DNA of 64,000 nucleotides, taken from NCBI GenBank assembly GCA_903960915.1, contig CAJCCO010000109.1, forward strand, positions 1 to 64,000. The letters run 5' to 3'. The notes below the pieces were generated by a model. The model saw only the letters and a list, made by a program, of their open reading frames with translations. It had not been told where the DNA came from and made no database searches. Shown here piece by piece: positions 5,745 through 19,452 of the stretch. A program made the position numbers and the translations under genes. How positions within the stretch are numbered: position 1 is the stretch's first letter; every line of letters begins with the position of its first letter. The DNA comes from an uncultured beta proteobacterium (GTDB taxonomy: Bacteria > Pseudomonadota > Gammaproteobacteria > Burkholderiales > Burkholderiaceae_C).

Positions 5745-6836
5745 TCAAATCGTAATCACCAGCTTGCCGAAGTGTTTTCGGGTCTTGAAGTCTTGTTGCG
5801 CTTGCACCAGGTCTTTGAGCGCATAGGTGGCGCTGAGCAAGGGTTTGAGCAGGCCGCGTTCTACGTAATCGACAATTTGCAAAGACTCGGCTTGCGAGCC
5901 CATGGTGGCGCCCAGGATGCTCAGGTGTTTGAGGTAAATCTTGCGCCAGTCCAGCGTCACCATGGCGCCGGCTATGGCGCCGGCGGTGACGTAGCGGCCG
6001 CCGTCGCACAGCAATTCCAGCAACTGCGGCACTTGCTCGCCGGCCACCAGGTCGGCCACCACATCTACGCTGGCACGGCCCAGTTGTTGTTGCAGTTGCC
6101 CCGCCAGGTCGGGCTCGCCCCTGAACATGACGGCGGCCACGTCCAGGCCTTGCAGCGCAGGCGCCTTGTCTTGCCCAATGATGACGGCCACGCGGGCGCC
6201 GCGGATGCGCGCGAGTTGCACCAGGGCCGAGCCGACACCGCCCGAAGCGCCGGGCACCAGCAGGGTCTCACCCGCTGCTAATTGGGCGCGGTTGAGCATG
6301 TGCTGGGCCGTCATGTAGGAGGTCATGAAGGTGGCGAGTTCAGCGTCGCTCAAGGGGGAGTTGACGGCGTGGGCATTGCTGTCAGGCAGGCACAGGTACT
6401 GCGCAAAGCCGCCGTCAAACTCGCTGCCCAGGTAGGTGGCCTGGAACAAAGACGCCGGGCCTGCGACTGGCGCGTACAGCGTGGGGTTGACCATGACGCG
6501 CTGGCCCAGGCGCTCTGGCGGCACGCCCTGCCCCAGCGCCACAATGCGGCCCACGGCATCCATGCCCTGAATGCGCGGAAAGGTGAACGCGCTGCCCTGC
6601 CAGCCGGCCTCTTCGCTGGCGCCGTAAGCGCCTTCGCGGGTCCAGACATCGGTGTTGTTGACGCCACACGCTCCCACTTCAATCAGCACCTGGTGCGGGC
6701 CGGGCGTGGGCACGGGCACATCGTCGCGGTACTGGAGTTTGTCTGTACTGCCAAAACCGGTGAGCAGCATGGCCCGCATGTGGGTGGGAGTGTGCGTAGG
6801 CATGTGGGTGGGAATGTGTTGTGAGGTGCTGGACAT
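5745..6836 (-). CDS. Zinc-type alcohol dehydrogenase/quinone oxidoreductase family protein (MDR)
   Basis: A 363-residue medium-chain dehydrogenase/reductase. The GroES-like domain shows GACGVNNTDVW and a GxDxxG-type segment (IQGMDAVGRIV). The nucleotide-binding fold shows PGASGGVGSALVQLA. Zinc-ligand cysteines typical of classical alcohol dehydrogenases are not evident, which favours an NADPH:quinone-reductase-type enzyme. The first 19 residues are a low-complexity Thr-His-Met-Pro repeat coded by a near-perfect DNA repeat; the conserved fold begins at MRAMLLTGFGS, so the start may be at about 6779. It lies 12 bases after the Fe-S protein gene and is probably the last gene of the sox transcript. 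Substrate unknown. Confidence 0.85.
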   Translation of the reverse strand: MSSTSQHIPTHMPTHTPTHMRAMLLTGFGSTDKLQYRDDVPVPTPGPHQVLIEVGACGVNNTDVWTREGAYGASEEAGWQGSAFTFPRIQGMDAVGRIVALGQGVPPERLGQRVMVNPTLYAPVAGPASLFQATYLGSEFDGGFAQYLCLPDSNAHAVNSPLSDAELATFMTSYMTAQHMLNRAQLAAGETLLVPGASGGVGSALVQLARIRGARVAVIIGQDKAPALQGLDVAAVMFRGEPDLAGQLQQQLGRASVDVVADLVAGEQVPQLLELLCDGGRYVTAGAIAGAMVTLDWRKIYLKHLSILGATMGSQAESLQIVDYVERGLLKPLLSATYALKDLVQAQQDFKTRKHFGKLVITI

Positions 6837-6848
6837 GGAGCGCCGTCC

Positions 6849-7631
6849 TTAAACCGGCCCCATACCCGTTGGCACCGGTGGGTGACTGGCCAGAAAAGCC
6901 TGCATGTGAAACTGCTGGTGCTCGCGGTGGTAGCGGTACGGCGTCCCCTGGGGACAGGCCTGGCGCGACTGGCACCCATTCTGATGGCAGGCCTGCCCGG
7001 CGGGCTGGTGCACATGGTTCACACACGCCTGCAACTGAAAGCCACCCTGACTGAACGCCTGCACCGGACAGGCGGCTAGGCAGGGTTGGCCGTCGCAGGC
7101 CACGCAAATGTCGGTGGGTATGGTTCGCGTGTTGTCCGTGGCAACGGTTGCCTCAGGTGGCGACGACTGGGCCAGATCAGCGGTGGCAATGGAGGGCAAG
7201 GCCAACGCAAATCGGTAGGCGTGCCACAGACCGTAGGTGGCGTGCATGCGCAGCATCAGCGGGCTGGCCTGCAGGGGTTCGGCGCGCGCTGCCCAGGTTT
7301 GAAACGGGTGGTACGGTGGCGGCCCGAAAGGAAACAGGGCCAGGCCGCCCCAGCGCTGGGCCAGGGCCTCGCCCACATGGCGACTCCAGCGGTCCAGCGG
7401 GTCAGGCAGGCCGTCCTGAAAAAATGCCGAGGCCTTGAAAAGGGGCCAAAAGCCGGAGCCGGCCACCCCCACCATCCAGACCACGGCCGGCGCTTGACCA
7501 CTTGGCGAACTGGGAGAGCTGGGAGAGCTGGGCAAGCTTGGCAACACTTCATCAGCCGTGGGCCGCCAACCACCGCGCAGCACCAGCCCAAAGGGGCTTA
7601 ATGCGGCTTGCAGTTCTTGGCGGGTAGGCAT
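6849..7631 (-). CDS. 4Fe-4S protein with a possible CblC/QueG-like N-terminal domain
   Basis: A 260-residue protein with eight cysteines in two groups near the C-terminus: Cys176/179/184/188 (CVACDGQPCLAACP) and Cys203/215/220/226 (ending CQSRQACP). These could hold two [4Fe-4S] clusters. The N-terminal 150 residues contain DPLDRWSRHVGEAL and the block RMHATYGLWHAYRFALALP. To my eye these resemble segments of the cobalamin-binding fold of MMACHC (CblC) and of QueG-type reductases, but this is inference from memory. A Ser-Pro-rich stretch (about 31-45) is coded by a short tandem DNA repeat. The gene sits between hyuA-like and MDR genes downstream of sarcosine oxidase, in a neighbourhood containing a corrinoid methyltransferase. 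Confidence 0.75.
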   Translation of the reverse strand: MPTRQELQAALSPFGLVLRGGWRPTADEVLPSLPSSPSSPSSPSGQAPAVVWMVGVAGSGFWPLFKASAFFQDGLPDPLDRWSRHVGEALAQRWGGLALFPFGPPPYHPFQTWAARAEPLQASPLMLRMHATYGLWHAYRFALALPSIATADLAQSSPPEATVATDNTRTIPTDICVACDGQPCLAACPVQAFSQGGFQLQACVNHVHQPAGQACHQNGCQSRQACPQGTPYRYHREHQQFHMQAFLASHPPVPTGMGPV

Positions 7632-7647: not shown

Positions 7648-9684
7648 TCAGACTGGTTTCGTCAGGGGTGGGCCAAAAGCTGTGGCGGTGACTTGGGCCT
7701 CGAAGAACATGTGGCCGTCAATGTCGTTGCTCACGCTGTTGTCGGTCTGGCTGAATTGAAGCTCGATGCTGGCCGCACCGGCCTGGTAGGCACGGCGGCT
7801 GGCTTCGGCGGCAGCCAGGGTGCGGGCGTGCTCAAGGGCCGGGGCCACGGTCTCAAAGTCGAGCGGGCCTGCGGCGGTAAAAACCCGAAATATGCCGCGC
7901 ACCGGTTGGCTCACCGTGACATGCACCCGTTGCGCCACCTGACCAAACACGGCACCCACGGCGTTGGCTACGTGGGCATAAGGCGGCAGCACCAACTCCA
8001 CCCCCAGACCACGCGCCACCTCGGGGTAGTAACTGGCGGCGGGTGCGCCGACGGCAATCAGGGGCAGGTCGTGGGCAAACTGCAGCTTGAAGACCGGGGC
8101 GTGCGACAGCGCCTGGGGCTTGTCTTTTTTCACCAGGCGGTTTTGTAAAGCCATCTGGGTCAGCAAGGCTGCCACCTGCATGGCGCGGTCTTCGTTCAAT
8201 TCGCCGGCGTCGTTCAAACCGGCTTCAATCAGCTTTTGGCAAATGGTGTGAATGACTTTGTCCACCACCTGCTGCGAAGGCCCGATCTCGTCGCCCAGCA
8301 CCCAGGTGCCCAGGCCGTACATGTGACGCATCTGGCGGGCCCAGACGCGCGCGCCAAAAACCGCAGCGGGCCGGCTCCAGTGCGTCGACATGCCCAGCAC
8401 GTGCGCGGCATCGCTGGGGGTAAAACCACTGTAAATGGCCAGCCCCTTGCGCTCTAGCCGGGCCAGGGCGCGCGACAGCGGCCGGTCTTCTATGTTGGAC
8501 TTTTCCAGGTCGATCGGGCCTTTGGCCAGCAGCTCCCAGGCACGCAGCTCGTCGTCCGGCAGGTGGTCCACCATGGCCTGGTCAGCGCTCAGGCGCAGTG
8601 CGAAGCGAATTTGGCTGGCATGCGGGGTTTCGTTTTGCTGCCGCTCCAGCACCTTCAAAACCTGGGGGTGCTCATGCGCCAGCAGGCTCAGGGGCACCAC
8701 ACGGCGCGGCCCGATGGACAGCCCTGCGCAACCTTGAAAGCGCACCTCGCTGTCGCCGCCCAAGCCAATGGCGTAAACCTTGACGGCCTCGATCATGGGG
8801 CGCCAGTTGCCCACCATGGCACCGTCAAAGCTCAAATCGGGCAGGCCGTTTCTGACCACGGCAATGTCGGTGGTGGTGCCACCCATGTCGGCCACGATGG
8901 CGTTGCGCAGGCCGCTCAAAGCGCAGGCACCCAGCACGCTGGCCGCCGGGCCCGACAACACGGTACCCACTGGGCGTTGCATGGCGCTTTGCACGTTGAT
9001 GAGCGAACCGTCGCCCTTGACGATCATCAGCGGAGCGTCAATGTGGCGCACCTTGAGCATGCTTTGCACCGATTCGATCAAGGCCTTGACGTGAAAAATC
9101 ATGCGCGCGTTCAGCGCCACGGTCATGGCGCGTCGCGGGGCACCCAGGCTAGAGGCCAGTTCGTGTCCGCAGGTGACCGGTTTGTCGCACAGGGCTTCTA
9201 CCCAGGCGCGCAGTTGCAACTCGTGCGCCGGGTTGCGCACGCCAAAACTGGCCGAGATGGCAAACGCGCTCACGCGTGGCGCGTGTTTGAGAATGGCCGC
9301 CTTGGCTTGCGCTTCATCGAGGTCTTGCAAGGCCACGCCACCGGCGTCGTGCCCGCCCGGCAAAGACACCACGGCGTCTGCGCCCAGCAACTCCACCAGA
9401 CCGCTGCTCTTGATTTGAGGCGCTTCATAGCCGGCCAGCAGCACGCACACCGGCGAGCCCTTGCCTTCCACCACCGAGTTGGTGGTGAGCGTGGTAGACA
9501 AGGACACCAGCATCACCTGGCCCAGCAAGTCCGGGGGCAGTTGGTCCAGCGCGGCGCCAATACCCAGCGCCAGGTCAAAGCGCGTTGTCAGACTTTTGGC
9601 GGCGGATACCACCTGACGCTGCGCGTCCAGCAGCACGACATCGGTGAAAGTGCCACCCGTGTCAATGCCCAGAAAATACCTCAT
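7648..9684 (-). CDS. Hydantoinase/oxoprolinase A-family ATPase (HyuA-like)
   Basis: A 678-residue ASKHA-fold protein of the hydantoinase A/oxoprolinase family. The first phosphate loop GIDTGGTFTDVV is at residues 6-17. The second, ADMGGTTTDIAVV, lies near the middle and begins the Hydantoinase_A domain. The length matches HyuA subunits, but no HyuB gene lies next to it. Known members hydrolyse hydantoins, 5-oxoproline or N-methylhydantoin with ATP, or carboxylate acetone or acetophenone, and normally need a B subunit. It follows soxG by 33 bases and has a strong GGGAGG ribosome binding site. It could make N-carbamoylsarcosine from N-methylhydantoin upstream of sarcosine, or serve as an ATPase for a corrinoid protein; neither is shown. 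Confidence 0.85.
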   Translation of the reverse strand: MRYFLGIDTGGTFTDVVLLDAQRQVVSAAKSLTTRFDLALGIGAALDQLPPDLLGQVMLVSLSTTLTTNSVVEGKGSPVCVLLAGYEAPQIKSSGLVELLGADAVVSLPGGHDAGGVALQDLDEAQAKAAILKHAPRVSAFAISASFGVRNPAHELQLRAWVEALCDKPVTCGHELASSLGAPRRAMTVALNARMIFHVKALIESVQSMLKVRHIDAPLMIVKGDGSLINVQSAMQRPVGTVLSGPAASVLGACALSGLRNAIVADMGGTTTDIAVVRNGLPDLSFDGAMVGNWRPMIEAVKVYAIGLGGDSEVRFQGCAGLSIGPRRVVPLSLLAHEHPQVLKVLERQQNETPHASQIRFALRLSADQAMVDHLPDDELRAWELLAKGPIDLEKSNIEDRPLSRALARLERKGLAIYSGFTPSDAAHVLGMSTHWSRPAAVFGARVWARQMRHMYGLGTWVLGDEIGPSQQVVDKVIHTICQKLIEAGLNDAGELNEDRAMQVAALLTQMALQNRLVKKDKPQALSHAPVFKLQFAHDLPLIAVGAPAASYYPEVARGLGVELVLPPYAHVANAVGAVFGQVAQRVHVTVSQPVRGIFRVFTAAGPLDFETVAPALEHARTLAAAEASRRAYQAGAASIELQFSQTDNSVSNDIDGHMFFEAQVTATAFGPPLTKPV

Positions 9685-9717: not shown

Positions 9718-10299
9718 TCAGTCGCCCGCTTCACACAGCCAGCGGTACAGGTAATCGGCAAAACTGCGGCGCACGGTCATCTCAAAATGCTCACCGGCTT
9801 GCACGCAAACGATGGTGGCGCCAGCCTTGGCCACATGGGTTTGGGCCACCGAACCCGCCTTGAACACGCTTGGGTGCAGGTCCAGCGGGCAACCGCGTGC
9901 CAGCAAATCAGCGGCAGCAGCGCCTTTGACCTGAAAGGTGGTGTTGCCGTCGCCCACGCGCACGACCGCGTGGTGCATGCCGGCCAGTGCCGTTTGCAGG
10001 GCCGACTCCAGCGCCTCGCCCTGGCCATCGTTGAGCTTGATGAGCCACTCATCCGGCCCCAACCACAGCACCTGGCGTTCGGCATTGGCGTGCACGGTGT
10101 TGGCGCTCAAGGGCAAGTCCAGCCCGATGCAGGCGGCAGCGGCGCTCAGAAAAGCGGCCTGCGAAGGCTCACCCCGCAGATTGATCATCTGGATAAAGGG
10201 GGTTTCTGAAAGGGTGCAGCTGTGGCCGTCCACCGTCAGCACGCGCTGGCCCAGACGGGTGATGCCCGCCAGCGGGCTTTGCAGTTCAATTTCAGACAT
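9718..10299 (-). CDS. soxG: Sarcosine oxidase subunit gamma
   Basis: The 193-residue gamma subunit of heterotetrameric sarcosine oxidase. The ORF track starts it at 10431, but that extension lies inside soxA. The true ATG (MSEIELQSPLAG) is at 10299 and overlaps the soxA stop by eight bases, indicating translational coupling. Family features include LRGEPSQAAFLSAA and the WLGPDEWLI block with a following VGDGNTTFQVKG segment. It is the last sox gene in the order B-D-A-G. The subunit pairs with the C-terminal aminomethyltransferase-like region of the alpha subunit; it has no known catalytic residues. Confidence 0.93.
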   Translation of the reverse strand: MSEIELQSPLAGITRLGQRVLTVDGHSCTLSETPFIQMINLRGEPSQAAFLSAAAACIGLDLPLSANTVHANAERQVLWLGPDEWLIKLNDGQGEALESALQTALAGMHHAVVRVGDGNTTFQVKGAAAADLLARGCPLDLHPSVFKAGSVAQTHVAKAGATIVCVQAGEHFEMTVRRSFADYLYRWLCEAGD

Positions 10300-13294
10300 G
10301 GTGACGATCCCCTTTCGGGTCATAAAACACAGGGCTGCACACCGTGGCAGCCACATAACGACCATCGGCCAGGGCGGCATAGACTTTGCCGCCCATACGC
10401 TGCTGGCCCGAACGCACCACCGCCATGGCAATGGAGCGCTTCAAGGTGGGGCTGTAGTAGCTGGAGGTCACGTGCCCCAGCATGGGCACCGGCGGCGGAC
10501 TGGCCTGCGACTGCGCCGTCAATTGCGCGCCTTCGGGCAACACGATCTGCGGCTCGTCGGTGAGCAAGCCCACCAGCTGCTTGCGGTCTGCGCCCGCGGT
10601 GTGGCTGCGGGTGAGCGAGCGGCGGCCCAAAAAGTCTTTGGTCTTGGCCACCATGGCGCTCATGCCCAGGTCGTGCGGGGTGATGGAGCCGTCGGTTTCC
10701 TGGCCCACAATGATGTAGCCTTTTTCGGCCCGCAGCACGTGCATGGACTCGGTGCCGTAGGGCGTGATCTGGTGCTCGGCGCCCGCTTGCATCAAGGCTT
10801 TCCAAACAAACGCGCCGCAGTTGGACGGCACGTTCACTTCCAGCGACAACTCGCCTGAGAAGCTGATGCGCATGATGCGCGCTGCCACGCCGGCCACGGT
10901 GCCCTGGCGGTGCGTCATGAAGGGAAAGGCGGCTGCCGACAGGTCGACATCGGTGCAAACTTTTTCCAGCACGGCGCGGGCCTTGGGGCCAGCCAGCACA
11001 AAGGTGGACCATTGGTCGGTCACGGTGGTCATGAAGACCTTCATGTCGGGCCACTCGGTTTGTACCCAGCGCTCCATCCAGCCCAGCACGCGCGCTGCAC
11101 CACCGGTGGTGGTGGTCATCAAGAAGTGGTTCTCGCCCAGGCGCGCGGTGACGCCGTCGTCAAACACCATGCCGTTTTCGTCGAGCATGAGGCCGTAGCG
11201 GCACTTGCCCGCTTCCAGCTTGAGGAAGGGGTTGGTGTACATCCAGTTGAGCAGCTTGGCCGCGTCTGGGCCTTGAATGTCGATCTTGCCCAGGGTGGAG
11301 GCGTCCATGATGCCTACGCCATGGCGCACGGCCAACACCTCGCGCTCTACCGCCTGGTGCATGTCTTCTTGGCCCTGCGGGAAATACCAGGGCCGCTTCC
11401 ACTGGCCCACGTCTTCAAACAGGCAACTGGCGGCCACATGGTGTTCATGCGGGCTGGTCTTGCGGGCGGGGTCAAACAAATCACCGCGCTCGAGCCCGGC
11501 AAACAAGCCAAAGCTGATGGGCAGGTAGTTGGGGCGGAAGGTGGTGGTGCCCACCTTGTCGATGGGTTTTTTCAAGGCCCGGGCGGCCAGCGCCATGCCG
11601 TTGATATTGCCCAGCTTGCCTTGGTCGGTGCCAAAGCCTAAGGCGGTGTAGCGCTTGATGTGCTCGATGGATTCAAACCCTTCGCGAATGGCCAGCTCTA
11701 TGTCACTGGCCGACACATCGTTTTGGTAGTCCACAAAGGCCTTGGCCCGGCGTGAAACGGGTTCACCGGTTTCGGCAATCCAGAAAGGTTTGATGGGCTC
11801 GGTGACCGGCTCCACCACCTGCAGCGGCAGCGCCGTGGCCGTAAAACCGGTGCGGCTGGCCGCTTGCACAGCGCAGCGACTGGCGTCAGCCAGCGTCTGG
11901 CTCAGCGTCCAGGTGGCGTTGCAGGCCCCCACGCTGACCTGATCGGTCACGGGCTCGCCCGGGGCAAAACACACGGTCTGGTCGTTCCAGCGCACTTTGC
12001 CGCCCGAATGCGAATACAGATGAATAGCCGGGTTCCAGCCGCCGGACATGCCCAGCGCATCGCAGCTGATCTGGCGTTCGCTGCCATTGGCCTGGTCGCC
12101 CACCATCTGGCGCACGGTGATGGCACTGACGCTCAAACTGCCTTTGGCCTCCACCGGCACGTAACCGCGCAAGACCTCAATACCGGCGTCATGTGCTTTT
12201 TGCACCAGGCCGCCCACCACAGACTTGCCAGCGCGCACGTCCACCACGGTGACCTGCGCACCGGTTTGCTTGAGCAGCAAGGCATCGGCGTAAGCGCTGT
12301 CGTTGTTGGTGAGGAGCACGATGCGCTGGCCCACGCGCACGCCGTACAGCTGCGCGTAGTCGGCCATGGCCGAGGACAGCATGACACCGGGCAAATCATT
12401 GTTGCCAAACACCATGGGGCGCTCATGGGCGCCCGTGGCCAGAATCACCTGGTGGGCTCGCACGCGCCACATGCGCTCCCGAAAGCCCTGGCGGTCCTTG
12501 ACGGGTTGGTGGTCGGTCAACGACTCACGGATGGTCAGGAAGTTGTGGTCATGGCAACCAAACACCACACCACGGCGGATGATGCGCACATTGGCCATGC
12601 TGGCGAGCTCACGCTCGGCGCTCTTGACCCAGTCGCTGGCGGACTGGCCGTCTATCTTGCCCTGCAAGCGGTGGGCCGCACCGCCCAGGTGCGCACCGAG
12701 TTCAGCCAGGATGACGCGTGCGCCACTGCGCCCGCTCACCAGCGCGGCGGCCAAACCGGCCACGCCGCCACCGGCAATCAGTACATCGCAATGGACGTTT
12801 TGCTGCACATAACGGTCAGCGTCTTCCACCGCAGGCGCGGCACCCAGGCCACCGGCCTTGCGGATGAAACGCTCATAAAACATCCAGGCCTTGCTGGGCC
12901 ACATGAAGGTTTTGTAATAGAAACCGGCGGGGAACAAAGGCGTACCCCAGCGGTTGATACTGAACAGGTGCTTGAGCGGGCTAGGCCAGGGGTTCACGCT
13001 CTCGCCGTGGAGCGACTCATACAGCTCCACCTCGGGCAACTTGGCGTTGGGAATGGTGTAGGCACCGGTCTCCAGTTGCACCAGGGCCGAGGGCTCTTCA
13101 ATGCCACAACTCACCACGCTGCGCGGGCGGTGGTATTTCCAGGAGCGCGTGAGCGCAGGGTCACCCGCACCCAGCAGGGCCGAGGCCAGGGTGTCGCCGG
13201 CAAAGCCCTTGAACTTGGCGCCGTTAAAAGTAAAACTGACCTGACGGCTGCGATCAATGCGATCGCCTCGGTCGGAAATTCGGGTAGCGCTCAC
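10292..13294 (-). CDS. soxA: Sarcosine oxidase subunit alpha
   Basis: The 1000-residue alpha subunit of heterotetrameric sarcosine oxidase, the usual size. In order: an N-terminal ferredoxin-fold (Fer2_4-like) domain (about 15-100) carrying SWKYHRPRSVVSCGIEEP, a dinucleotide-binding domain starting VLIAGGGVAGLAAAL (about 171-185), and a C-terminal half of GCV_T/aminomethyltransferase type that passes the methyl carbon to tetrahydrofolate. The enzyme converts sarcosine, oxygen and THF to glycine, 5,10-methylene-THF and hydrogen peroxide. The start is a GTG sharing GTGA with the soxD stop. Methylene-THF can be used by FolD, encoded 3.3 kb upstream on the same strand. Confidence 0.97.
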   Translation of the reverse strand: MSATRISDRGDRIDRSRQVSFTFNGAKFKGFAGDTLASALLGAGDPALTRSWKYHRPRSVVSCGIEEPSALVQLETGAYTIPNAKLPEVELYESLHGESVNPWPSPLKHLFSINRWGTPLFPAGFYYKTFMWPSKAWMFYERFIRKAGGLGAAPAVEDADRYVQQNVHCDVLIAGGGVAGLAAALVSGRSGARVILAELGAHLGGAAHRLQGKIDGQSASDWVKSAERELASMANVRIIRRGVVFGCHDHNFLTIRESLTDHQPVKDRQGFRERMWRVRAHQVILATGAHERPMVFGNNDLPGVMLSSAMADYAQLYGVRVGQRIVLLTNNDSAYADALLLKQTGAQVTVVDVRAGKSVVGGLVQKAHDAGIEVLRGYVPVEAKGSLSVSAITVRQMVGDQANGSERQISCDALGMSGGWNPAIHLYSHSGGKVRWNDQTVCFAPGEPVTDQVSVGACNATWTLSQTLADASRCAVQAASRTGFTATALPLQVVEPVTEPIKPFWIAETGEPVSRRAKAFVDYQNDVSASDIELAIREGFESIEHIKRYTALGFGTDQGKLGNINGMALAARALKKPIDKVGTTTFRPNYLPISFGLFAGLERGDLFDPARKTSPHEHHVAASCLFEDVGQWKRPWYFPQGQEDMHQAVEREVLAVRHGVGIMDASTLGKIDIQGPDAAKLLNWMYTNPFLKLEAGKCRYGLMLDENGMVFDDGVTARLGENHFLMTTTTGGAARVLGWMERWVQTEWPDMKVFMTTVTDQWSTFVLAGPKARAVLEKVCTDVDLSAAAFPFMTHRQGTVAGVAARIMRISFSGELSLEVNVPSNCGAFVWKALMQAGAEHQITPYGTESMHVLRAEKGYIIVGQETDGSITPHDLGMSAMVAKTKDFLGRRSLTRSHTAGADRKQLVGLLTDEPQIVLPEGAQLTAQSQASPPPVPMLGHVTSSYYSPTLKRSIAMAVVRSGQQRMGGKVYAALADGRYVAATVCSPVFYDPKGDRHHV

Positions 13295-13587
13295 TCAACA
13301 CCTCCGGAAACTTGTGGCGTGTCGGGGTTCTCCCCCGGCTTGTAAAACTTGGTGAACGCGTAGCTCACGGTGTGGCGCTCGGCATTGAACCAACGCCGGC
13401 AGCCTTGCGCGTGCAGCCACTGCTCGCGGTGCAGGCCCTTGGGGTTTTTACGCATGAAGAGGTAGTCGGCCCACTCGGCGTCGGTCAGGGCATCGGTGTC
13501 GAGCGGGCGGGCGATATGCGCCTCACCGCCACAGCTGAATTCACTTTCGGCGCGGGGACCGCACCAGGGGCAGGTAATTTTTAGCAT
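13291..13587 (-). CDS. soxD: Sarcosine oxidase subunit delta
   Basis: The 98-residue delta subunit. It has the zinc-binding N-terminal motif CPWCGPRAESEFSCGG and the family block HAQGCRRWFNAERHT, including the additional metal-ligand Cys. It ends with the common YKPGE segment. It lies between soxB (24 bases upstream) and soxA (GTGA overlap), the standard arrangement. It is a structural zinc subunit of the heterotetramer. Confidence 0.96.
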   Translation of the reverse strand: MLKITCPWCGPRAESEFSCGGEAHIARPLDTDALTDAEWADYLFMRKNPKGLHREQWLHAQGCRRWFNAERHTVSYAFTKFYKPGENPDTPQVSGGVE

Positions 13588-13611: not shown

Positions 13612-14862
13612 TCAGTGCGCAACGCCGGCCGCGCCGTGTTCGTCAATCAGGTGGCCGGAGGTGAAGCGGTTCAGGTCAAACGCCGCGTTCAGTGCATGGG
13701 GCCGGTCTTGCGCCATGGTGTGCGCCATGACCCAGCCCGAGCCGGGCGTGGCCTTGAAGCCACCCGTGCCCCAGCCGCAGTTGAAGTACAGGCCCTTGAT
13801 ATGCGTCTTGGAGATGATGGGGCAGGCGTCGGGCGCCACGTCCACAATGCCGCCCCACTGGCGGTTCATGCGCACCCGGCGGAAGATGGGGAACAGCTCG
13901 CAAATGGCTTGCAGCGTGTGCTCAATCACCGGGAACGAGCCGCGCTGGCCGTAGCCCACATACGAGTCAATGCCCGCACCAATCACCAGGTCGCCCTTGT
14001 CAGACTGGCTGGCATAGGCGTGAATGGCGTTGGACATGACCACGGTGTGCAAAATAGGTTTCATGGGTTCAGACACCAGCGCTTGCAGCGGATGACTCTC
14101 CAGCGGCAGGCGAATGCCCGCCATGTCCGCAATCACGGTGCTGTGGCCGGCCGCGACCACACCAATCTTCTTGCTCTTGATGACGCCGCGGGTGGTCTCA
14201 ATCCCCACCACCTGGTCGCCGTCGCGCTGCACGCCAATCACTTCGCAGTTCTGGATGATGTCCACGCCCAGCCGATCGGCGGCGCGGGCAAAGCCCCAGG
14301 CAATCGCGTCGTGGCGCGCCACACCGGCGCGCGGCTGGAACGACGCGCCCATGACCGGATAGCGCAAGCTGTTGCTGGTGTTCATGATGGGCACCATGGC
14401 CTTGATTTCTTCGGGGCTGAGCACCACGCCGTCCACACCGTTCAAGCGGTTGGCATTCACGCGGCGGTGAATGTCGCGCATGTCTTGCAGCGAGTGGCCC
14501 ACGTTCATCACGCCACGCTGGCTGAACATGGTGTTGTAGTTGAGGTCTTGCGACAGGCCTTCCCACAACTGCAGCGCCTTTTCATACAAATGCGTGGCGT
14601 CGTCCCACAGGTAGTTGGAGCGCACGATGGTGGTGTTGCGCGCGGTGTTACCGCCGCCCAGCCAGCCGCGCTCGACCACCGCAATATTGCGCATGCCGTG
14701 CTCTTTGGCCAGGTAATAGGCCGTGGCCAAGCCGTGGCCGCCACCACCTACGATGATGGCGTCGTAACTGGCCTTGGGTTCAGGACTGCGCCACTGCTTT
14801 TGCCAGTTCTCGTGGTAAGACATGGCATTGCGGGCGAGGGAAAAAATTGAAAAATGGCTCAT
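13612..14862 (-). CDS. soxB: Sarcosine oxidase subunit beta
   Basis: The 416-residue catalytic beta subunit, a DAO-family flavoprotein. The FAD motif [17 protein letters not shown] spans about residues 36-52. His184 in [13 protein letters not shown] corresponds to the histidine that covalently binds FMN in characterised heterotetrameric enzymes. The segment [19 protein letters not shown] is typical of the family. It oxidises sarcosine to its imine. It is the first sox gene, 90 bases after sdaA, with GAGA before the ATG. An internal Met14 (MSYHENW) is an alternative start. Confidence 0.96.
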
Positions 14863-14952: not shown

Positions 14953-16356
14953 TTAGCATTCGATCACGTTGACGGCCAGGCCACCGCGGCTGGTTTCCTT
15001 GTATTTTGTCATCATGTCCCGGCCGGTATCGCGCATGGTCTTGATGACCTGGTCGAGCGAAACAAAGTGCGTGCCGTCGCCGCGCAGTGCCATGCGCGCC
15101 GCATTGAGCGCTTTGACCGAACCCATGGCGTTACGCTCGATGCACGGAATTTGCACCCGCCCACCCACCGGGTCGCAGGTCAGTCCCAGGTTGTGCTCCA
15201 TGCCAATTTCGGCGGCGTTTTCGACTTGCATCGGGGTGCCGCCCGTGACAGCAGCCAAACCGGCAGCCGCCATGGAGCAGGCCACACCGACCTCCCCCTG
15301 GCAGCCCACTTCAGCGCCGCTAATCGACGCATTTTCCTTGTACAACAAGCCAATCGCGCCTGCGGTCAGCAAAAAGTCGCGGATGCCATCCTGGTTGGCA
15401 CCGGCACAAAACCGGTCGTAGTAATGCATGACGGAAGGCACTATGCCAGCGGCCCCGTTGGTGGGCGCGGTGACCACACGGCCTCCGGCGGCGTTTTCTT
15501 CATTCACCGCCATGGCGTAGACGTTGACAAAGTCCAGGGTGGTGAGTTGGTCTTTGATGGCCTGCTCCGGGCGGCTGCTTAAGGAGCGGTGCAACTCGGC
15601 GGCACGGCGCTTGACCAACAAGTTGCCGGGCAGATGGCCTTCGGTGCGGATGCCGCGGTCCACGCAGGCTTTCATGGCGTCCCAGATGCGGTCCAGCCCG
15701 GCGTTGAGCTCAGCATCGGTGCGCCAGGACAGCTCGTTGGCGCGCATCACCTGGGCAATGGACAGGCCGCTGCCCGCACAGATGGCCAGCAAAGCATCGC
15801 CACTGGAAAAGGGAAACCGAACCTTGGTCGGGTCGGGCACGATGCGCGGCACCTCACCGGTGCTGGCGTTTTGGGCGTCTGCCACCTCCTGCGACACCAC
15901 AAAGCCACCGCCTACCGAAAAATAGCGCCGCTCCTGAATCAGCGTGCCAGCCGCGTCGAAGGCCATGAATTTGACCCCGTTGGGATGGTAAGACAAGGTC
16001 TCGCGGCGCAGGAAAAGAAGGTCCGTCTTTTCGGCGAAGGCGATGTCTTTTTGGCTATTCACCCGCAGTGTTTTGGCGGCGCGCATGGCCTTCAGGCGCC
16101 CGGTGATGGTGTCTGGGTCAATGGTGTCAGGCTGTGCGCCCTCCAGACCCAGCATCACCGCCGTGTCGGTGCCATGGCCTTTGCCCGTGGCACCCAGCGA
16201 GCCATAAAGACGCACTTCAATCCGCTCGGTTTGCGCCAACTGCCCATCGGCCTGGAGCGCCGCAGCAAACATGGCAGCGGCTTTCATGGGGCCCACCGTA
16301 TGCGAGGAAGAGGGGCCAATGCCAATCTTGAACAAATCAAAAACACTCAGTGCCAT
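14953..16356 (-). CDS. sdaA: L-serine ammonia-lyase (iron-sulfur type)
   Basis: A 467-residue single-chain L-serine dehydratase that converts serine to pyruvate and ammonia using a [4Fe-4S] cluster. The start is set at the ATG of [19 protein letters not shown], the standard family N-terminus; the ORF track adds 31 unrelated residues. Conserved features are [14 protein letters not shown], the cysteines in [20 protein letters not shown] and [10 protein letters not shown], and the beta-domain segment [15 protein letters not shown]. Placed between folD and sox, it fits conversion of sarcosine-derived glycine through serine to pyruvate. Eleven-base tandem repeats lie about 85-150 bases upstream of its start. 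Confidence 0.96.
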
Positions 16357-16440
16357 GCTTAACTTTCTAGTTTTGACCTGCCGGGAATGCAGCCGGACTG
16401 CGGCAAAGGGTTGCCTGGGTTCGGCGCCACCCCGCTGCCA

Positions 16441-16505
16441 TAGGTACATTGGAGGTACGTTATCGGTGCGTTGTCGGTGCGTAATCGGTGCTTAATAGAT
16501 GCTTG
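16441..16505. repeat. 11-base degenerate tandem repeats upstream of sdaA
   Basis: About six consecutive units share the core CGGTGCGT with a period of 11 (the first is 10): TAGGTACATT, GGAGGTACGTT, ATCGGTGCGTT, GTCGGTGCGTA, ATCGGTGCTTA, ATAGATGCTTG. The three middle units are nearly identical. They lie in the sdaA promoter region (sdaA starts at 16356 on the minus strand). A period of 11 is close to one helical turn, so binding of a regulator to one face is possible. Replication slippage is the simpler explanation. Confidence 0.7.
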
Positions 16506-16629: not shown

Positions 16630-17571
16630 TCAGGCAGGGACCGGCGCCTGATACGCTTTTGGCAGGCTTTCTACGCTCTCTCCCGTTTTCACCCCAGCCA
16701 ACTTGCCCAACTTGCCCAGCTTATCCGCCTGGCGCTTGGCCGCGTGCACCGTGTTGTAAACCAGCATGGTGACGGTCATGGGGCCCACGCCGCCCGGTAC
16801 CGGGGTGATGTACGAGGCTTTTTGGCGCACGCCTTCAAAATCGACGTCGCCCACCAAGCGGCCATCTGGCAGGCGGTTGATACCCACGTCAATCACCACC
16901 GCGCCGGTACGCACCATTTCCTTTGTAATGAGGTTGGGCCGGCCAGCAGCCACCACCAGAATGTCCGCCAGAATGGTGAACTGGGCCAGGTCACGCGTCT
17001 TGGCGTGGCAAATACACACGGTGGCGTCTTGCTGCATCAGCATCAGCGCCATGGGCTTGCCCACAATGTTGCTGGCGCCCACCACCACCACGTTTTGCCC
17101 CTCGATACGAATGTTCTCGAACTCCAGCATTTTTTGCACCCCAAACGGGGTACAAGGCGGAAATACGGTGTCGCCCAGCACCAGGCCACCCACGTTGTAG
17201 AGGTGAAAACCGTCCACATCCTTGTCAATGGAGATGGCGCCCAGCACCCGGCGCACATCAAAATGCTTGGGCAGCGGCAGCTGCACCAAAATGCCGTGCA
17301 CCGTGGGGTCGGCGTTCAGGCGCTCAATTTCTGCTTCTACAACGGCGCCTTCCACCCCGGCCTCAAAGGCGTACACCGTAGAGCTCAGGCCCACCTCCGA
17401 GCAGGCCTTGATCTTGTTGGCCACATAGACTTTGGAGGCCGGGTCGTTGCCCACAATGATCACCGCCAGGCCTGGCGTGACGCCCCCGGCCTTGAGTGAA
17501 TCGCTGATGTCACGGCACTGCGCCCTGACCTGACGGGCCACGGCATGGCCATCGATAATTTTTGCAACCAT
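16630..17571 (-). CDS. folD: Bifunctional methylene-THF dehydrogenase/methenyl-THF cyclohydrolase
   Basis: A 313-residue FolD starting at MVAKIIDGHAVARQ; the ORF track adds 11 upstream residues. The catalytic Lys lies in YVANKIKACSEVGL. Other conserved blocks are ILVQLPLPKH, PCTPFGVQKML, the NADP site VVVVGASNIVGKPMA (usually GRSNIVGKP) and PVPGGVGPMTVTML. It oxidises 5,10-methylene-THF to formyl-THF, a natural partner for sarcosine oxidase. The C-terminus carries about 25-30 extra residues (DKLGKLGKLAGVKTGESVES region) beyond the usual roughly 285. It is divergent from the MttB-family gene. Confidence 0.96.
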   Translation of the reverse strand: MVAKIIDGHAVARQVRAQCRDISDSLKAGGVTPGLAVIIVGNDPASKVYVANKIKACSEVGLSSTVYAFEAGVEGAVVEAEIERLNADPTVHGILVQLPLPKHFDVRRVLGAISIDKDVDGFHLYNVGGLVLGDTVFPPCTPFGVQKMLEFENIRIEGQNVVVVGASNIVGKPMALMLMQQDATVCICHAKTRDLAQFTILADILVVAAGRPNLITKEMVRTGAVVIDVGINRLPDGRLVGDVDFEGVRQKASYITPVPGGVGPMTVTMLVYNTVHAAKRQADKLGKLGKLAGVKTGESVESLPKAYQAPVPA

Positions 17572-17856
17572 GGGGGTCCTGAAATGTGGGGGCTGTTGGC
17601 GCACTTTTGCGCCGAGCGAATGCTATGCCCCGGCGCTGCAGGGCAGGACCGCAGCACACGACTACGACCATTCCGCTTGCGACAAGCGCTCTGGGCCGAC
17701 AAGCAGCCGGCGCCGCGCCTGCAGCATGGTGTCTGGGGGATGACGTTGGGTAACAAGCGCGGGTCGCTTGCTGACTACCCGAGAGCCTGTGGCTTCACCA
17801 TACTGCAGCCTATACGGGGTTGATTCGTAACCCCCAGCACGATCTGGAGTCAAGTT
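17572..17856. promoter_or_regulatory. Divergent promoter region between folD and mttB-like gene
   Basis: The 285 bases between divergent genes contain two inverted repeats built from the same hexamers: CGCTTG-CGA-CAAGCG at 17674-17688 and CAAGCG-CGGGT-CGCTTG at 17754-17770. They could be operators for a shared regulator such as the GlxA/AraC-type protein at 25126-26100, but no site for that family is confirmed. The mttB-like ATG has GGAG at 17846-17849. Confidence 0.4.
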
Positions 17857-19452
17857 ATGAATGAGGCACTCACCCAAGTAGAAAACCCAGCAGAACAGGC
17901 ACCGCGCACCGGTCGCCGTGCTGGTGGTGGACGCGAGGCCAAGCGCGCCGCCCGCACTGCGCGCAGCGGCCAGTCCGTGCCTTACATCACCCGCAAAATT
18001 CCCTACTTTGAAGTGCTGGACGAAGAGGGTCTGCAAATCATCGAGCGCAACGCTGACACCATTCTGGAAGAAGTCGGTATCGACTTCCGCGACGATGCCG
18101 AGGCGCTGGACATCCTGCGCGCAGCGGGTGCCGACGTCAAAGGTGAGCGCGTTCGTTTCCCTCGCGGTTTGTGCCGCCAGTTGGTTCAGGCCACCGCCCC
18201 GCGTGAATTCACCCAGCATGCCCGCAACCCGGCGCACAACGTGGTCATTGGTGGCAAGAACACCGTGTTTGCCCCCGCTTACGGCTCGCCGTTTGTGCGC
18301 GACCTGGACAAGGGCCGCCGCTACGCCACCATTGAAGACTTTCAAAACTTCGTGAAGCTGGCTTACACGGCCCAGTCGCTGCACCATTCGGGCGGCACTA
18401 TTTGCGAGCCGGTTGACCTGCCAGTGAACAAACGCCACTTCGACATGGTGTATGCGCACATGAAATACAGCGACAAGCCCTTCATGGGCTCAGTCACCCA
18501 CCCCGACCGCGCCAAAGACACGGTAGAGATGACCAAGTTGCTGTTTGGCGACAACTACATGGACCCGTTGACCGGTCGCCCCAAGACCTGCGTCATCAAC
18601 CTGATCAACGCCAACTCGCCGATGACTTTCGACGAGACCATGCTGGGTGCCGCCAAGGTGTACGCCCGGGCCAACCAGGCCACCATCATCACGCCGTTCA
18701 TTCTGGCGGGTGCCATGTCGCCGGTCACCGTAGCCGGTACCGCCGCTCAAACCCTGGCTGAAGCGCTGGCTGGCATGGCGTTTGTGCAGCTGGTCAACCC
18801 CGGTGCGCCGGTGGTCATGGGCAGCTTTGCCTCCTCCATTTCCATGCAGTCTGGCGCGCCCACCTTTGGCACACCCGAGCCTGCGCTGGTCTTGTACGTG
18901 ATGGCTGCGCTGGCCCGCCGTCTGGGCGTGCCCTTCCGCTCCGGTGGCGGCTTGTGCGGCTCCAAAATTTCTGATGCCCAAGCGGCCTCCGAGTCGGCCA
19001 ACACCATGTTGCCCACCTGCTTGGGTGGCGTTAATTTTGTGTTGCACACCGCAGGTTGGCTCGAAGGCGGTTTGTCCATGGGCTATGAAAAGTTCATCAT
19101 GGACGTCGACCAGGCCGGCATGATGCACACCCTGCTCGCAGGCGTAGACATGAGCGAGAACGGTCAGGCCATGGACGCCATCCGCGAAGTCGGCCCCGGC
19201 AAGCACTTTCTGGGTTGCGCCCACACCCAGGCCAACTTCGAGAGTGCGTTCTACCGCTCCCCGATTACCGACAACAACAGCTATGAACAGTGGGAAGCCG
19301 AAGGCGCCCGCGACCTCACCTCACGCGCCAACGCCATGTGGAAGAAGCAGCTCTCCGAATACGAAGCACCGGCCATGGATGTCGCCACCGACGAGGCGAT
19401 TCTTGACTATGTGAGCCGGCGCAAGTCCTCGTTCCCTGACTCCAACGTCTGA
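17857..19452 (+). CDS. MttB-family (non-pyrrolysine) corrinoid methyltransferase, putative glycine betaine/quaternary amine demethylase
   Basis: A 531-residue member of the trimethylamine methyltransferase (MttB) superfamily. There is no in-frame amber codon, so it belongs to the non-pyrrolysine branch, whose characterised members demethylate glycine betaine (MtgB), proline betaine, carnitine or gamma-butyrobetaine and pass the methyl to a corrinoid protein. Visible family segments are YGSPFVRDLDKGRRYAT, SGGTICEPVDLP, GSVTHPDRAKDTVEM and VLYVMAALARRLGVPFRSGG. The N-terminal 40 residues are basic and Arg-rich. The gene stands alone on the plus strand, convergent with an ABC operon and divergent from folD. 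No corrinoid-binding protein gene is in the window. Function as betaine demethylase is inferred from the sox, folD and carnitine neighbours. Confidence 0.88.
   Translation: MNEALTQVENPAEQAPRTGRRAGGGREAKRAARTARSGQSVPYITRKIPYFEVLDEEGLQIIERNADTILEEVGIDFRDDAEALDILRAAGADVKGERVRFPRGLCRQLVQATAPREFTQHARNPAHNVVIGGKNTVFAPAYGSPFVRDLDKGRRYATIEDFQNFVKLAYTAQSLHHSGGTICEPVDLPVNKRHFDMVYAHMKYSDKPFMGSVTHPDRAKDTVEMTKLLFGDNYMDPLTGRPKTCVINLINANSPMTFDETMLGAAKVYARANQATIITPFILAGAMSPVTVAGTAAQTLAEALAGMAFVQLVNPGAPVVMGSFASSISMQSGAPTFGTPEPALVLYVMAALARRLGVPFRSGGGLCGSKISDAQAASESANTMLPTCLGGVNFVLHTAGWLEGGLSMGYEKFIMDVDQAGMMHTLLAGVDMSENGQAMDAIREVGPGKHFLGCAHTQANFESAFYRSPITDNNSYEQWEAEGARDLTSRANAMWKKQLSEYEAPAMDVATDEAILDYVSRRKSSFPDSNV

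Follow-up and report, generated by a model that had tools for sequence, protein, structure and literature searches.

A HyuA-like ATPase subtype very probably linked to the MttB corrinoid methyltransferase system in Pseudomonadota

The HyuA-like ATPase encoded next to the sarcosine oxidase genes of an uncultured beta proteobacterium belongs to a distinct subtype with a replaced substrate loop, and a link between this subtype and the MttB methyltransferase system is very probable. The protein is probably a descendant of the HyuA superfamily that no longer works as a hydantoinase or oxoprolinase subunit. Judging from sequence comparisons, there is about an even chance that it serves the MttB/corrinoid/RamA system as an ATP-driven accessory, most likely a reactivase or chaperone.

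The window, i.e., the whole stretch of DNA analyzed here, comprises 64,000 nucleotides (GenBank assembly GCA_903960915.1, contig CAJCCO010000109.1, positions 1 to 64,000) of a 3.7-Mb genome in 146 contigs that is 98.8% complete. The hyuA-like gene is located at 7648 to 9684 on the minus strand; the ORF is intact, starts with ATG, and codes for 678 amino acids. It is a conserved gene and no chance ORF, with dN/dS values of 0.11 to 0.17 against its relatives, which among public MAGs come chiefly from freshwater Comamonadaceae and other Betaproteobacteria. The original prediction, a HyuA-type gene right after soxG with no HyuB encoded nearby, was borne out in every part. Reading leftward, the operon consists of sda (L-serine ammonia-lyase, 14953 to 16449), soxB (13612 to 14862), soxD (13291 to 13587), soxA (10292 to 13294), soxG (sarcosine oxidase gamma, 9718 to 10299, with the start set at the ATG at 10299), hyuA, a gene for a 260-amino-acid Fe-S protein (6849 to 7631), and an alcohol dehydrogenase-like gene (5745 to 6836), all on the minus strand. 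It is a tight operon, since only 33 bases separate the end of soxG (9718) from the hyuA ATG, 16 the hyuA stop from the start of the Fe-S gene, and 12 the latter from the alcohol dehydrogenase-like gene. Just upstream there are folD (16630 to 17604, minus strand) and a divergent mttB (17857 to 19452, plus strand, 777 bits, free of in-frame stops), which codes for an MttB superfamily methyltransferase, probably of the glycine betaine type and MtgB-like. These neighbors (sda, soxBDAG, folD, and mttB) place hyuA in the catabolism of glycine betaine, dimethylglycine, and sarcosine. The order hyuA-Fe-S gene, with sox and/or sda upstream, recurs in tens of freshwater betaproteobacterial MAGs, and the alcohol dehydrogenase-like gene is kept in only part of the loci.

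The first half of the protein clearly resembles HyuA. Pfam Hydant_A_N matched nearly in full length (residues 5 to 163, E value of 9e-27), Hydantoinase_A only over model positions 1 to 145 of 291, and the best PDB match was a 5-oxoprolinase (6yra). In hhalign comparisons with eight canonical HyuA sequences, residues 1 to 331 aligned with a probability of 100% (E value of ca. 1e-49), and then the match ended. Thus, residues 1 to 330 are homologous to the HyuA/Hydantoinase_A subunits of 5-oxoprolinase, N-methylhydantoinase, and acetone/acetophenone carboxylase. The two ATP-binding motifs are retained: phosphate-1, IDTGGTFTD (residues 7 to 15, 9640 to 9666, minus strand), is near-invariant across the subtype alignment, and phosphate-2, DMGGTTTD (residues 266 to 273, 8866 to 8889, minus strand), aligned with that of canonical HyuA. 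The profile match ends at ca. residue 330 because the substrate loop has been replaced by an insert of ca. 90 residues. Where canonical HyuA reads GAGGGS...VGP.SAGA.PGPACYGRGG..TVTDA in the joint alignment, the subtype has GLGGDSE...IGPRRVVPLSL, then the insert (residues ca. 332 to 420, 8425 to 8691, minus strand), and then FTPSDAAHVLG. The C-terminal remainder aligned only weakly to HyuA, including the GGAGPLHA segment, to which VGAPAASYYP of the subtype (residues 545 to 554, 8023 to 8052, minus strand) was aligned. Unlike the HyuA subunits, the subtype lacks the PGPACYG loop, has a shortened C-terminal domain, and comes without HyuB. When the C-terminal half was searched by profile against PDB and Pfam, no solid match emerged besides a weak winged-helix hint, and the AlphaFold model, built from an alignment of close relatives only, was too weak for a structure search (pLDDT of 51). 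In the tree, the subtype forms one separate clade on a long branch.

No cognate HyuB was found nearby in the window, and none is free in the rest of the genome. Two HyuB genes (PF02538) do exist, one on contig C87, fused to its canonical HyuA, and one on contig C32, beside its own canonical HyuA; since both are already paired, none is left for the subtype ATPase.

We ran the subtype profile over 398 Pseudomonadota genomes, drawn evenly although the phylogenetic spread of the sample is uneven, and scanned the same genomes for MttB (PF06253), RACo_C_ter (PF14574), and the Fe-S protein. Members were well separated, with full-length matches of 683 to 1090 bits, from non-members, which reached at most 203 bits over only ca. 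the first 350 positions; the sole exception was one member fragment at 467 bits. MttB was present in 54 genomes, leaving out one short fragment in G088, and RACo, at 283 bits or more, in 55, namely, the same 54 plus G103. The subtype was detected in 37 genomes, and every one of them also had MttB and a canonical RamA/RACo. It was never found without MttB, either in the 398 genomes or in 135 genomes of the host's own family, where subtype and MttB were confined to the same two. Consistent occurrence of the subtype apart from mttB homologues would have spoken against the original prediction; the opposite was found, in 37 of 37 genomes and in both of those from its own family. Fisher tests gave P values of ca. 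2e-39 by genome and ca. 7e-23 by genus, kinship being ignored in both, and chance co-occurrence was rejected on the two scans. The same pattern was seen in each of five families (f1, f39, f49, f59, and f63). Among the genomes listed for f59, all 14 with MttB carry the subtype, and it is absent from the five without MttB (G043, G107, G209, G339, and G370); similarly, among the five members listed for genus g128, the subtype is restricted to the single member with MttB. The copy number of MttB tends to be higher in subtype carriers, up to 11 in G384. A requirement for some particular extra MttB paralogue was rejected, as G217 carries the subtype with a single MttB. However, 17 of the 54 MttB genomes, about a third, have no subtype gene, so that it would be helpful rather than essential to MttB chemistry, and because RamA is always present alongside, energy coupling would not depend on the subtype ATPase alone. 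As a separate observation, G103 has RamA and an mtgD-type methyltransferase on contig C17 (L169), with neither MttB nor the subtype.

The position of the gene in other bacteria is variable. The clearest arrangement is found in G363, of the gammaproteobacterial class, where hyuA is the last gene of an operon with the order mttB, corrinoid protein (mtgC), DUF1638, C-terminal part of metF (metFC), metF, mtgD (methyltetrahydrofolate:corrinoid methyltransferase), ramA, and hyuA, with its ATG overlapping the ramA stop by 4 bases. In Mesorhizobium amorphae, the subtype gene lies ca. 2 kb from mttB, and in Azoarcus KH32C it is next to betA/betB, and both mttB and ramA are found no more than ca. 10 kb away. 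Among the 45 loci retrieved from Betaproteobacteria, 15 have mttB inside the contig stretch, and in seven hyuA directly follows sda without sox genes in between, which indicates that it can be separated from sarcosine oxidase. Most of the Rhizobiaceae-like and Rhodobacteraceae-like genomes have hyuA at a distance from mttB, surrounded by housekeeping genes. Three Rhodobacteraceae-like genera (L130, L131, and L132) have it directly after queG, which codes for a cobalamin-dependent Fe-S enzyme, although this may be a coincidence.

The rest of the corrinoid system of the host is located on contig C103, where genes for the corrinoid protein, DUF1638, a small protein annotated as a virulence factor, metF parts, an mtgD-type methyltransferase, and RamA are found in a row. 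We found four MttB paralogues in the genome (contigs C109, C106, C61, and C141) versus a single match for the corrinoid protein (PF02607), so that several methyltransferases may share one corrinoid protein. Together, the mttB of the window and the mtgC-DUF1638-metF-mtgD-ramA cluster of C103 resemble the MtgBCD glycine betaine demethylase of aerobic marine bacteria (Mausz et al. 2025, PMC12478193), the main text of which does not mention a hydantoinase-like component. Nor does a hydantoinase-like gene figure in the main text of the work on Phaeobacter inhibens, in which fitness data showed that RamA and DUF1638 homologues are needed for B12-dependent methionine synthesis, both being necessary for corrinoid reactivation (PMC5764234). 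On the other hand, in "Ca. Formimonas warabiya" DCMF a HyuA-type protein ("HydA") is encoded within the cluster for glycine betaine methyltransferase; it is strongly raised on glycine betaine, and no function was proposed for it (PMC9768040). We liken it to the subtype by description, both being HyuA-type and encoded with MttB, and in DCMF also with the corrinoid protein and MTII; unlike the hosts of the subtype, DCMF is a strict anaerobe outside the Pseudomonadota. Full-text literature searches found no other paper linking a hydantoinase to MttB. In Methanosarcina acetivorans, predicted hydantoinases (MA4395-MA4396) adjoin the methanol methyltransferase genes mtaCB2 (PMC11619418), another neighborhood of HyuA and a corrinoid methyltransferase.

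The product of the gene following hyuA is likely a B12-binding, Fe-S-carrying protein, with a resemblance to MMACHC that is modest and at the level of the fold. Its N-terminal part appears MMACHC/CblC-like and is accompanied by a cysteine-rich ferredoxin-like part. No Pfam family scored above the cut-off, MMACHC remaining below it with an E value of 0.12, and a PDB profile search gave a weak pointer to MMACHC/CblC. In a Foldseek search of PDB with the predicted structure (pLDDT of 67.5, pTM of 0.69), the top two matches were human MMACHC and Caenorhabditis elegans CblC, with probabilities of 0.94 and 0.21 and a best E value of 0.016. This MMACHC-like appearance fits a corrinoid-related function. 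Homologues directly follow mttB in Sinorhizobium meliloti and Paracoccus. In the co-occurrence check, the association of the ATPase with mttB was without exception, but not that with the Fe-S gene, which is found in all subtype genomes but G363 (36 of 37) and also in a few of the 398 genomes without MttB. Likewise, it is absent downstream of hyuA in 11 of the betaproteobacterial loci that extend ca. 1 kb or further beyond that gene. We thus rejected an obligate two-gene unit, and the pairing is a local feature of the operon, not a rule. In-frame stops inside the matched Fe-S stretch were seen at L035 (ca. 11277 to 12020) and in G131, G225, G285, G390, and G396; they could be due to misplaced starts or to decay.

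If the ATPase is an accessory of the MttB system, it would most likely open or remodel the corrinoid protein or the MttB-corrinoid complex, and this opening would let an inactive (e.g., oxidized) corrinoid be re-reduced or exchanged. In this operon, B12 handling or reduction would fall to the co-transcribed MMACHC-like protein, whereas the routine reduction of Co(II) to Co(I) would be left to the separate canonical RamA. More tentatively, and with less confidence than in the general role, we propose that it is a second, previously unrecognized ATPase besides RamA, a reactivase of the ASKHA class derived from HyuA that here would work with the MMACHC-like Fe-S protein. An accessory role is suggested by the co-occurrence, the G363 operon, the neighborhoods in Mesorhizobium and Azoarcus, the loss of the substrate loop while the ATP motifs were kept, the lack of a spare HyuB, and the modest likeness of the Fe-S partner to MMACHC/CblC; the HyuA-type protein of the DCMF cluster (PMC9768040) would provide independent support by analogy. 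Against it stand the MttB genomes without the subtype, the frequent distance from mttB in the Rhizobiaceae-like and Rhodobacteraceae-like genomes, and the fact that the host already possesses RamA and DUF1638, the necessary factors in P. inhibens (PMC5764234). Were it true, a group annotated as hydantoinase/oxoprolinase in many genomes would have been repurposed for the maintenance of vitamin B12 enzymes. Such a component, conserved with the system in Alpha-, Beta-, and Gammaproteobacteria, would complete its parts list and correct many hydantoinase annotations, and it makes testable how aerobic cells sustain an oxygen-sensitive Co(I) corrinoid system.

It is rather unlikely that the ATPase is instead an enzyme that uses ATP to act on a small metabolite, cyclic or carbonyl, from the breakdown of methylated amines, either free of HyuB or with an unrecognized partner, the co-occurrence with MttB then reflecting a shared diet. 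The HyuA superfamily does act on small molecules (5-oxoproline, hydantoins, and ketones), and hyuA is found among catabolic genes. Besides, the host has a second copy of the subtype on contig C55 (L069:8192-10213, 39% identical and also without HyuB) near a DUF898 protein and a TauD dioxygenase resembling gamma-butyrobetaine hydroxylase, the dioxygenase arrangement being kept in contig C7 of G469. However, an enzyme of this kind is hard to reconcile with the loss of the substrate loop and of HyuB, with the translational coupling of hyuA to ramA in G363, and with the occurrence of the subtype, in five families, strictly in genomes that have MttB and RamA, even if 17 MttB genomes lack it.

We consider improbable that the ATPase replaces or duplicates RACo as reductive activase, with the Fe-S protein as the electron-carrying half of a split enzyme. 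This would explain why the operon has an ASKHA ATPase next to an MMACHC-like Fe-S protein, and why the ATPase is associated with MttB. RamA/RACo (DUF4445), of the same ASKHA fold class as the subtype ATPase, belongs to the same corrinoid methyltransferase system. However, hhalign detected no similarity between the ATPase and RACo beyond one ATP-binding motif of 30 residues; the RACo_C_ter domain is not in the ATPase, and its only match in the host genome is on C103, clustered with the corrinoid gene. Pfam and NCBIfam scans found no Fe-S domain on the ATPase chain, nor does its sequence contain a CxxC cluster motif. In addition, G363 has the ATPase without any Fe-S homologue, and most of the 17 MttB genomes without the ATPase do carry the Fe-S gene. 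Since each of the 37 subtype genomes has a genuine RACo/RamA, and for lack of similarity, we rejected a RACo substitute. The original prediction of an energy-coupling partner for MttB is thus strongly supported as to the link, and what it had suggested by way of RACo is not, the ATPase being an additional component. The preferred accessory role shares with the ASKHA reactivases of B12 enzymes (GlmL/MutL, DdrA, and EutA) the idea of an ATP-driven protein that services a B12 enzyme; the match of the ATPase to GlmL/MutL covers only ca. 45 residues around the N-terminal ATP motif, and its overall architecture is HyuA-like.

The insert has also been considered as a DNA-binding element, in which case the ATPase would be a regulator that senses a metabolite through its ATPase fold and controls the quaternary-amine genes. 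We regard this as quite improbable: the winged-helix match (DprA_WH) appeared in four of the 22 members, with a weak best E value of 0.003, winged-helix folds also serve protein contacts, and the position in a catabolic operon together with the overlap with ramA argue for a member of a complex.

Finally, the hydrolysis of N-methylhydantoin to feed sarcosine to the adjacent SoxBDAG, with a HyuB elsewhere, which had been proposed from the position right behind soxG and agrees with the general hydantoinase/oxoprolinase annotation, is very unlikely and was rejected, because the substrate loop is absent, both HyuB proteins of the genome have canonical partners, and hyuA follows sda without sox genes in seven loci and ramA in the sox-free operon of G363. 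A scan of viral contigs returned four relatives at 39 to 40% identity.
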